Made by a program: the position numbers and the translations under genes. Positions 8,121 through 20,078 of a stretch of 64,000 nucleotides of DNA are shown here, piece after piece (the stretch's first letter is position 1; every line of letters begins with the position of its first letter). Location: the NCBI GenBank assembly GCA_014650475.1, contig BMVA01000007.1, positions 1 to 64,000 on the forward strand, given 5' to 3'. The DNA comes from Streptomyces albogriseolus (GTDB lineage: Bacteria > Actinomycetota > Actinomycetes > Streptomycetales > Streptomycetaceae). The notes beneath the pieces were generated by a model. It saw only the letters and a program-made list of their open reading frames with translations, had not been told where the DNA came from and did no database searches.

Positions 8121-8263
8121 CGAGTCCATCGCTGCCCGCCGTGGCAGCCGGAGCCGGGGACCCACCGAGACCTGGGGTGAATCGGCCCACTCCCGCAGGG
8201 AGCGGCCGTAGGGCAACCCTTCCGAACCACCCGCCCGAACCCGACAGCTAACCCGGTAGGCGG
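8121..8263 (+). promoter_or_regulatory. ydaO/yuaA-type c-di-AMP riboswitch
   Basis: The leader contains the conserved blocks of this riboswitch class in order: GAGCCGGGGACCCA, CTGGGGTGAATCGG, GTAGGGCAACCCTTCCGAA and CCCGACAGCTAACCCGGTAGG. In actinobacteria this class sits ahead of cell-wall hydrolase genes (rpfA, NlpC/P60 and others) and represses expression when c-di-AMP is high. It ends 23 bases before the TTG start of the peptidase gene, with the ribosome site GAAGGAG (8271-8277) between. Boundaries are approximate; the variable P-stem was drawn by eye. Confidence 0.92.
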
Positions 8264-8286
8264 AGCACTGGAAGGAGTCGCCTCCC

Positions 8287-17848: not shown

Positions 17849-19432
17849 TCACTCCCACTCGATGGTGCCCGGGGGCTTGGACGTGACGTCCAGGACGACC
17901 CGGTTGACGTCGCTGACCTCGTTGGTGATCCGCGTGGAGATCTTCGCGAGGACGTCGTACGGCAGCCGCGACCAGTCGGCGGTCATGGCGTCCTCGCTGG
18001 AGACCGGGCGCAGCACGATCGGGTGACCGTAGGTGCGGCCGTCGCCCTGGACGCCGACCGAGCGGACGTCGGCGAGCAGCACCACCGGGCACTGCCAGAT
18101 GTCGCGGTCCAGGCCGGCCGCGGTCAGCTCCTCGCGGGCGATCGCGTCGGCCTCGCGGAGCAGGTCGAGCCGCTCCTTGGTGACCTCGCCGACGATGCGG
18201 ATGCCCAGGCCGGGGCCGGGGAAGGGCTGGCGGTGGACGATCTCCTCGGGCAGGCCGAGCTCCTGGCCGACCATCCGGACCTCGTCCTTGAACAGCTTGC
18301 GCAGCGGCTCGATCAGCTTGAACTCGAGGTCCTCGGGCAGGCCGCCCACGTTGTGGTGGGACTTGATGTTGGCCGTGCCGGTGCCGCCGCCGGACTCGAC
18401 GACGTCCGGGTAGAGGGTGCCCTGCACCAGGAACTCCACCGCGGGGCCCTCGTCGGCGATGATCTCCGCCTGGGCCTGCTCGAAGACCCGGATGAACTCA
18501 CGGCCGATGATCTTGCGCTTCTGCTCGGGGTCGGAGACCCCGGCCAGCGCCTTCAGGAACCGCTCCTCGGCGTCGACGACCTTGAGCTGGACGCCGGTCG
18601 CCGCGACGAAGTCCTTCTCGACCTGCTCGGTCTCGCCCTTGCGCATCAGGCCGTGGTCGACGTAGACGCAGGTCAGCTGGGAGCCGATGGCCTTCTGCAC
18701 CAGCGCGGCGGCCACGGCGGAGTCCACCCCGCCGGACAGGCCGCAGATGGCGCGCTTGTCGCCGACCAGCTCGCGGATGGCGGCCACCTGCTCGTCGATG
18801 ACGTTGCCGGTGGTCCAGTTCGGCGTGAGGCCCGCGCCCCGGTACAGGAAGTGCTCCAGCACCTGCTGCCCGTGCGTGGAGTGCATCACCTCGGGGTGGT
18901 ACTGGACGCCGTAGAGCTTCTTCTCGTCGTTCTCGAAGGCGGCGACCGGCACGACGTCCGTGGACGCGGTGACGGTGAAGCCCTCGGGGGCGGCGGAGCA
19001 GGCGTCGCCGTGCGACATCCAGACCGCCTGCTCCTCGGGGGTGCCCTCGAAGAGGGTGGAGGAGTTCTTGGCGACGTGCAGGCCGGTGCGGCCGTACTCA
19101 CGGGCGCCGGTGTTGTCCACCTGGCCGCCCAGGGTCTGGGCCATGAGCTGGAAGCCGTAGCACATGCCGAAGACGGGGACGCCGGCCTCGAAGAGCTCGC
19201 GGTCGAGGCGCGGGGCGCCCTCCTCGTACACGGACGAGGGACCGCCGGAGAGGATGATCGCCGCGGGGTTCTTGGCGAGGATGTCCGCGACCGGCATGGT
19301 GCTCGGCACGATCTCGCTGTAGACCCGCGCCTCGCGGACGCGACGGGCGATGAGCTGGGCGTACTGCGCGCCGAAGTCGACGACCAGGACGGTGTCGGGC
19401 GCGTTGGCAGCGGGAGTAGTCGCTGATGACAC
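17849..19432 (-). CDS. guaA: GMP synthase (glutamine-hydrolysing)
   Basis: A 527-residue enzyme converting XMP to GMP. The N-terminal class I glutamine amidotransferase domain has the nucleophile Cys in [10 protein letters not shown] and the His/Glu pair in QYHPEV. The ATP pyrophosphatase domain starts with the PP-loop [14 protein letters not shown], and the C-terminal dimerisation domain ends [10 protein letters not shown]. Full length for the family. Together with guaB and guaB3 about 19-22 kb away, it completes the guanine nucleotide branch in this neighbourhood. Confidence 0.98.
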
Positions 19433-19558: not shown

Positions 19559-19587
19559 TTGGGCGGGCTGGGCCGACCGGGCATACT
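19559..19587 (+). promoter_or_regulatory. candidate promoter for a leaderless leader peptide
   Basis: TTGGGC (19559-19564) and CATACT (19582-19587) have a 17-base spacer. The expected transcription start is 7-8 bases downstream, at the ATG of the 23-residue leader peptide (19595), so the leader would be translated from a leaderless end. Confidence 0.55.
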
Positions 19588-19594
19588 GGGTCCC

Positions 19595-19666
19595 ATGCTC
19601 ACGCACGCGACCTTCCTCTTTACCTATGGCACCCGGCCCGCCGGCTGCCATGGTCGTGCTGCTTGA
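19595..19666 (+). CDS. leader peptide, 23 residues, with clustered Phe/Tyr codons
   Basis: The small frame encodes MLTHATFLFTYGTRPAGCHG and three further residues (RAA) before TGA. Phe-Leu-Phe-Thr-Tyr codons (19613-19627) sit immediately before a hairpin and 60 bases before a strong terminator-like stem. The next gene encodes chorismate mutase, the branch to phenylalanine and tyrosine. That is the arrangement of an amino-acid attenuator: ribosome stalling at Phe/Tyr codons would decide which RNA hairpin forms. Inferred from the sequence layout; translation has not been shown. Confidence 0.6.
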   Translation: MLTHATFLFTYGTRPAGCHGRAA

Positions 19667-19721
19667 GCAACTGACAAGCGACTTCCCAGGCGCCCCGGGC
19701 CGACAGGTCCGGGGCGCCTGG
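19626..19721 (+). promoter_or_regulatory. putative attenuator: pause hairpin plus terminator stem
   Basis: The first hairpin pairs ATGGCA (19626-19631) with TGCCAT (19646-19651), with inner CCGG/CCGG. It begins inside the Tyr codon of the leader peptide. A small GCTTG/CAAGC stem follows (about 19661-19679). The terminator-like stem is a perfect 13 bp, CCAGGCGCCCCGG (19686-19698) with CCGGGGCGCCTGG (19709-19721), followed by CGTTT. Stalling on the Phe/Tyr codons would open the first hairpin and could shift pairing away from the terminator. Confidence 0.55.
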
Positions 19722-19781
19722 CGTTTCACCGGACCGTGCCGGCTCCGGGGCCCCGCACCCCACTCACCGAGGAGCCCCGAG

Positions 19782-20078
19782 ATGACTGCCGCCACCACCG
19801 AGCCGACCGAGAAGACCGGCGCCCGCACCGCCGAGGCCGCCGAGCTGATCGGCGACGCCCGTGAGCGGATCGACGCGCTGGACGACCGGATCATCGGCCT
19901 GGTGCAGGAACGGATGGCGGTGTCCGCCGTGATCCAGAAGGAACGGATCGCCTCCGGCGGCCGCCGTGTGAACCTCTCCCGCGAGATGGAGATCCTCGCC
20001 ACGTACCGGGACGCCCTGGGCAAGCCGGGCACCGCGCTCGCCATGACCCTGCTGGAGCTGTGCCGGGGCAGGATCTGA
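19782..20078 (+). CDS. chorismate mutase, AroQ class
   Basis: A 98-residue all-helical enzyme converting chorismate to prephenate. The typical pattern is present: RERIDALDDRIIGLVQERMAV, then VIQKERIASGG, then NLSREMEILATYRDALG. ATG 19782 follows GAGGAG. Short free-standing AroQ mutases of this type in actinobacteria can associate with DAHP synthase. The leader peptide and terminator stem upstream suggest control by phenylalanine/tyrosine supply. Confidence 0.92.
   Translation: MTAATTEPTEKTGARTAEAAELIGDARERIDALDDRIIGLVQERMAVSAVIQKERIASGGRRVNLSREMEILATYRDALGKPGTALAMTLLELCRGRI

Follow-up and report, generated by a model that had tools for sequence, protein, structure and literature searches.

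The DNA immediately upstream of the chorismate mutase gene of Streptomyces albogriseolus, in which a short open reading frame (ORF) with Phe and Tyr codons is followed by potential hairpins, raises the question of whether, and how, supply of these two amino acids is sensed in control of the gene. The window, i.e. the whole 64,000-nucleotide stretch that was analysed, comprises positions 1 to 64,000 (forward strand) of contig BMVA01000007.1 in assembly GCA_014650475.1. Chorismate mutase feeds both the Phe and the Tyr branches of the pathway, as is established biochemistry, so a single leader reading both amino acids fits that step. As set out below, we consider it likely, with good confidence, that the element is a ribosome-mediated Phe/Tyr transcription attenuator controlling chorismate mutase.

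The leader region and its predicted RNA parts

The features of the region are as follows, with coordinates given in the window.

17849–19432, minus strand: upstream neighbour of the leader region, which we take from its sequence to be guaA
19559–19564, plus strand: −35-like TTGGGC, with a spacer of 17 bp to the −10-like element
19582–19587, plus strand: −10-like CATACT, then seven bases and ATG 19595
19595–19666, plus strand: leader peptide ORF MLTHATFLFTYGTRPAGCHGRAA, 23 codons, stop TGA at 19664–19666, apparently leaderless
19613–19615, plus strand: first Phe codon, TTC, followed by CTC
19619–19621, plus strand: second Phe codon, TTT, near-invariant, probable control codon, followed by ACC
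19625–19627, plus strand: Tyr codon, TAT, near-invariant, probable control codon
19622–19654, plus strand: from folding and alignment, hairpin 1:2 (pause/protector), which opens within the Tyr codon; ACC(U)AUGGCA...UGCCAUGGU
19637–19653, plus strand: strand 2 of the predicted antiterminator, pairing with 19686–19699
19661–19679, plus strand: small hairpin GCUUG...CAAGC over the stop codon, nested in the predicted antiterminator
19686–19699, plus strand: strand 3, partner of strand 2 (antiterminator) or strand 4 (terminator)
19686–19721, plus strand: terminator hairpin 3:4, 16 bp including one G–U pair, 4-nt loop, covarying
19729–19735, plus strand: CCGGACC ('strand 5'), resembling the upper part of strand 3, with complementarity to GGTCCGG (19706–19712) in strand 4
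19770–19774, plus strand: AGGAG, likely to serve as the ribosome binding site for chorismate mutase
19782–20078, plus strand: chorismate mutase, AroQ type, 98 aa, by NCBIfam and Pfam matches

A sequence-only reading of this DNA had claimed a promoter-like pair ahead of an ATG, a 23-codon frame with TTC CTC TTT ACC TAT, a hairpin beginning inside the Tyr codon, a perfect 13-bp terminator-like stem and a chorismate mutase gene downstream. The pair and the frame are present as described; the hairpin extends over 19626–19651, its opening base being the second of TAT. The stem also stands, although with a length of 16 bp and one G–U pair in place of 13 perfect base pairs. The identity of the downstream gene is borne out by matches above cut-off to NCBIfam NF005894 (122.5 bits; cut-off 73), TIGR01808 (56.7 bits; cut-off 52.15) and Pfam CM_2 (29.6 bits; cut-off 27); by its NCBIfam assignment it serves the synthesis of Phe and Tyr, as the gene behind an attenuator for these amino acids should. 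It is from the promoter-like pair alone that we infer a probable transcription start at the leader ATG; a start directed by this promoter would leave no space for a Shine-Dalgarno site before that codon.

The segment 19595–19782 has a predicted minimum free energy (MFE) of −103.4 kcal/mol, compared with −76.0 ± 4.4 kcal/mol for 200 dinucleotide shuffles (z −6.2; 0/200 as good). The terminator stem is followed by CGTTTCACC (CGTTTC), without a clear or classical U-tract, and the predicted 2:3 pairing comprises 13 bp with bulges. At gathering score, none of the 4227 covariance models of Rfam 15 matches the leader region, and at E-values up to 10 nothing relevant was returned there, the best (0.62) being an unrelated microRNA model. 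Elsewhere in the window, a c-di-AMP riboswitch (ydaO/yuaA, RF00379) lies at 8127–8279 (plus strand), scoring 60.1 bits (gathering score 38).

Conservation, covariation and linkage to chorismate mutase

Related loci were collected by the mutase protein alone, in a first set (n=110) and a second set (n=100, comprising 85 host-family, 14 order-level and one class-level loci). A leader ORF is present in 194 of the 195 family loci, 191 with an F2-x-Y pattern and three as variants (L170, RFFFYG; L175 and L195, with His and Gln for Tyr, respectively). In the first set, the core F/Y-x-F-T/I-Y-G occurs in 109/110 loci, the remaining one (L018) ending short upstream; in the second, an F-x-Y-G pattern occurs in 82/85 family loci. 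The second Phe codon is TTT in 109/109 leaders of the first set and 81/82 of the second (190/191 in total), and the Tyr codon is TAT in 109/109 and 80/82 (189/191 in total). The search pattern for the first set itself demanded TTT and TAT, such that its 109/109 codon count rests on 109/110 loci passing that pattern; the pattern for the second set allowed either last base in both codons, and the codon pairs recovered were TTT/TAT (79), TTT/TAC (2) and TTC/TAT (1). At the first Phe position, TAC is found in 4/109 first-set leaders, and the 82 second-set leaders have Phe in 49, Tyr in 15 and other residues in 18.

Both preferred codons are rare in the window: across 28 long open frames there with high GC3, TTT makes up 5/285 Phe codons (1.8%) and TAT 12/249 Tyr codons (4.8%). 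TAT may have been kept because its last base pairs in hairpin 1:2; TTT (19619–19621) is unpaired in the window's predicted fold, and no structural reason for its near-fixed use in the leaders was found.

The surroundings of the codons are similarly constrained. CATACT, TACACT or CATAAT precedes the start codon by 6 nt (79 loci) or 7 nt (29 loci) in 108/109 first-set loci, the exception (L107) being cut off upstream, and a looser −10 match is found for 81/82 second-set leaders. Start codons are ATG (102) or GTG (6) in the first set and ATG (80) or GTG (2) in the second, and the stop codon has the same position in 103/109 first-set loci. The 109 first-set leaders represent 107 distinct sequences; L003 and L062 seem to be duplicates from a single genome, and L055, a Microtetraspora record, was assigned to the family by its sequence.

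Beyond the family, leaders were found in 14/14 order-level loci (MLANRRFFYGYG, RRFSYGH or similar) and in 11/21 class-level loci (types RFFYGYR, RFYGHR, RFYPDR and FYGDR, some with a single F-Y pair), the latter set (L125 and L211–L230) being our own choice of 21 from 40 class-level places. No leader was detected in nine of these 21 loci, two of which (L216 and L229) are contig ends of less than 400 bases, and that of L227 was too doubtful and was left uncounted. At least one TTT codon is present in 25/25 of the order- and class-level leaders, each of which is followed by a GC-rich hairpin; this is a rough call, the lowest-energy window in several loci (e.g. L118, L121, L122 and L226) not being an obvious terminator.

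Alignment across relatives had been proposed as the check on the sequence-only reading, and with respect to conservation it did not refute that reading: the frame, the Phe/Tyr codons, the −10 spacing and both stems are kept across the family, and the same leader parts recur in diverged form in other orders. As judged by these comparisons, the leader element is deeply conserved, and the leader appears to be what an attenuator calls for, a short translated ORF with the codons of the pathway at a fixed place.

Covariation was analysed in an alignment (A1) of 97 of 190 aligned loci, from which redundancy was dropped at 93% identity and L083, L110, L130 and L166 were omitted by hand; L018, L107, L170, L175 and L195 never entered it. 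Hairpin 1:2, the stop-codon hairpin and the terminator are together paired in 92.4% of cells, with two-sided changes in 14 pairs and in 76 cells, compared with 26.6 ± 3.8 cells in shuffled alignments (0/500), which ignore relatedness. The terminator holds 69 of these 76 cells; its stem is 94.0% paired, with two-sided change in 9/16 pairs. The 7-pair helix of hairpin 1:2 is 96.6% paired, with only two pairs changed on both sides. Hairpin 1:2 does overlap the control codons, as in an attenuator. The main helix of the small stop-codon hairpin is paired in 75.6% of cells. Strand 3 is less variable than strand 4, which often drifts via G–U pairs. By our score cut, a strong stem follows the leader in 183/190 loci; in 156/190 there are 3–5 T within the 12 nt after the stem, i.e. 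a poor U-tract. The predicted 2:3 core is paired in 92.6% of cells, and its covariation is not clearly above that of shuffles (10 two-sided cells versus 5.3 ± 2.0, 13/500), 73/500 of which equalled its covariation score.

The leader was captured in a covariance model (R1), which was run over 150 family genomes with a match threshold of at least 55 bits. In 105/105 genomes whose mutase is close (at least 51% identity), the element lies on the same strand, 20–284 nt upstream of the first mutase codon in the match; 58 of these 105 genomes had their locus in the model's training alignment. In the 45 family genomes without a close mutase the element was not detected (0/45; best 39.4 bits); 38 of the 45 belong to one genus, such that these absences reflect few events and are not independent. 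These 38 genomes, all of genus g27, have neither the element nor a close mutase. Five of the 45 element-free genomes contain a distant mutase match (29–44% identity), and these matches were taken as putative paralogues.

Within the S. albogriseolus genome, there is a single complete copy of the element (145 bits), the next best match (36 bits) covering the terminator part only. A scan of the 500 nt upstream of the guessed starts of pheA, tyrA, two DAHP synthases and pheS, for ATG/GTG ORFs of 9–40 codons with two aromatic residues within three positions, revealed no similar leader; the sole ORF returned, ahead of one DAHP synthase, has W-x-W and lacks a −10 element. The same genome also has, close to one another, a domain of the chorismate mutase type and a match resembling prephenate dehydrogenase (C19:127504–127740, minus strand, and C19:128134–128337, plus strand), which we take to be perhaps a pair from aminophenylalanine-type secondary metabolism.

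Proposed mechanism and alternative explanations

In the proposed mechanism, transcription would begin at the leader ATG or one base away, with a 70S ribosome initiating immediately on the leaderless ORF. With charged tRNA-Phe and tRNA-Tyr both ample, the ribosome would reach UGA 19664 and cover strand 2, whereupon strands 3 and 4 would pair and transcription would stop. Were either tRNA scarce, the ribosome would halt with TTT 19619 or TAT 19625 in the A site, holding strand 1; hairpin 1:2 would then not form, 2:3 would pair, and the polymerase would continue into the mutase gene. Without a ribosome, hairpin 1:2 would be expected to form, followed by the terminator. The conserved sequence parts, the terminator covariation and the joint occurrence with a close mutase are shown by the results above; the transcription start, the stalling, the antiterminator and the amino-acid response are the parts of this model that we infer.

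Stalled states were modelled by folding the sequence free of the ribosome up to the end of strand 3 (MFE, 97 sequences), the leading edge of the ribosome being set, as is general knowledge, 12 nt from the A-site codon. The antiterminator is present in the MFE structure of 97/97 sequences with Tyr in the A site, 85/97 with the second Phe, 12/97 with the first Phe and 1/97 with no ribosome. Since stalls at the second Phe and at Tyr give the antiterminator, the two near-invariant codons are the positions able to flip the predicted fold; the first Phe, according to the same predictions, mostly cannot switch it and would be free to vary.

The energetics of the 2:3 pairing are less favourable. The duplex outperforms 95% of shuffled strand-2 sequences in just 8/97 cases, and the post-stall segments fold approximately one standard deviation better than shuffles. 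Once strand 4 is made, the antiterminator-only fold has a median deficit of 26 kcal/mol relative to the terminator fold; a similar computation for the trp attenuator of E. coli gives a gap of 2.7 kcal/mol. Both the trp and the phe leader of that species served as controls, of which only trp yielded this yardstick; of two patterns used to seek a trp-leader control in the S. albogriseolus genome, the first had no match and the second lacked specificity. With a deficit of this size, antitermination would have to be decided by folding kinetics, i.e. the antiterminator must win kinetically over the terminator, and in these models antitermination via 2:3 appears to be the weakest and least certain step of the attenuator mechanism.

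Two further observations concern the strands themselves. In one species (L110:1771–1915), a rewritten strand 2 is predicted to pair with strand 3 even with strand 1 free, and this element is perhaps constitutively open. Across 191 loci, base identities at strand 5/strand 4 are T/A in 33, T/G in 9, C/A in 19 and C/G in 63, with another base in 8 loci and 59 loci unscorable; the association has a Fisher p of 3e-9 in a test that ignores relatedness, and the pair is broken in 19 loci, for which reasons we treat it as a side observation.

Other explanations of the locus have to be weighed against these results. GC-rich inverted repeats are frequent in high-GC genomes, and a random short ORF beside such a repeat could look like a leader; chance origin is, however, refuted by the conservation of the element in related genomes, throughout the family and order and in some class-level loci, and the fold z of −6.2 points the same way, leaving it a negligible probability. 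It is also highly improbable, in our view, that the ORF encodes a small functional peptide followed by an ordinary constitutive terminator, with the mutase driven by another promoter: a CHGRAA ending well kept within Streptomyces and the shared stop position (103/109 loci) would suit such a peptide, but the sequence after Tyr is frame-shifted or rewritten in L061, L077, L110, L150, L156 and L158, the N-terminus is variable, and the element follows the close mutase (105/105 genomes versus 0/45).

A more serious competitor, although still an unlikely one, keeps the leader and hairpins as regulatory and Phe/Tyr-responsive and dispenses with the 2:3 antiterminator; a stalled or absent ribosome would then act via Rho access, RNA decay or coupling to mutase translation, with the GC-rich hairpin serving as a processing or pausing element. 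The absence of a clear U-tract after the stem, the 26 kcal/mol thermodynamic deficit and the lack of clear 2:3 covariation are all in keeping with this, as is the description, in the accessible text of PMC8079986, of actinobacterial leaders without a typical Rho-independent terminator. The strong covarying stem in 183/190 loci, the lower variability of strand 3 relative to strand 4, as expected of a strand with two partners, and the switching of the predicted fold at precisely the two near-invariant codons argue against it. Actinobacterial attenuator look-alikes can nonetheless mislead, since changing the supposed control codons of S. coelicolor ilvB had no effect, as related in the part of PMC1262725 available to us.

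The Phe/Tyr-sensing attenuator put forward by the sequence-only reading is supported by the conserved frame, codons and stems and by the terminator covariation; an antiterminator, which that reading had not set out, is predicted in 97/97 sequences and is the weakest part. A broader proposal can be made only tentatively, and we hold it rather more doubtful than probable: that the element is an ancient, widespread actinobacterial switch sensing Phe and Tyr jointly at the enzyme common to both branches. In such a switch, rare U-ending codons would be obligatory for control, namely TTT and, in the host family, TAT; sensitivity would be set by slow wobble decoding, the decision would be purely kinetic, with a terminator far stronger than the antiterminator, and the fifth strand (19729–19735) would perhaps capture strand 4.

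If the attenuator reading is true, Phe/Tyr control by RNA would be located directly at the branch-point enzyme. Many Streptomyces antibiotics draw on aromatic amino-acid flux, and removal of the leader would be an obvious route to higher flux in production strains. That TTT is kept almost without exception, in a genome otherwise written with TTC, allows a direct test of whether synonymous codons matter for ribosome stalling, and the weak antiterminator offers a test case for kinetic folding.

Comparison with known systems

A search of the openly accessible literature returned no recognised report of this chorismate mutase attenuator, and no description of Phe/Tyr-responsive RNA control in Streptomyces was found in the literature searched. 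In the accessible text of PMC1262725, a 2005 survey of Actinobacteria, it is stated that Phe and Tyr operons showed no conserved RNA structures upstream; the present alignment suggests that this survey, as far as its available text goes, missed a conserved element. The portion of PMC1173090 available to us describes putative attenuators before tyrA operons and none for a Streptomyces mutase, and the word 'chorismate' is absent from the main texts of the mycobacterial papers PMC13236596 and PMC4633059. The element is very probably a ribosome-mediated attenuator of a known type, and for the gene that it precedes no such report was found.

The nearest known systems are pheL–pheA of E. coli and aroR–aroF of Corynebacterium glutamicum. 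Comparable leaders from the same genus are those of S. lividans TK24, for which Table 4 of PMC8079986 lists eight: trpL1/2, leuL1/2, ilvL, alaL, thrL and metL. According to the accessible text of that paper, these are, like the present leader, mostly leaderless short ORFs with hairpins, several without a U-tract, and they precede amino-acid or tRNA-synthetase genes; the table itself includes leaders for neither Phe nor Tyr, nor any chorismate mutase entry. In Corynebacterium glutamicum, the aroR leader ahead of aroF (DAHP synthase) carries Phe-Tyr-Phe and acts by attenuation, as stated in the available parts of PMC4046766 and PMC11802643. By these published descriptions, aroR resembles the present element as an actinobacterial F/Y leader on an aromatic pathway gene; it differs in the gene controlled (aroF) and, from the same portion of PMC11802643, in responding to Phe and not to Tyr limitation.

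The E. coli pheL–pheA system (pheL, b2598) likewise places a Phe-rich leader before a gene with chorismate mutase activity, pheA encoding a fused chorismate mutase/prephenate dehydratase, and its regulation by charged tRNA-Phe is stated in the accessible text of PMC11802643. Compared with it, the Streptomyces element has an apparently leaderless start, no clear U-tract and no Rfam match. E. coli pheL contains Phe codons but no Tyr codon, whereas the Streptomyces leader contains both, matching a mutase that is shared by both branches.
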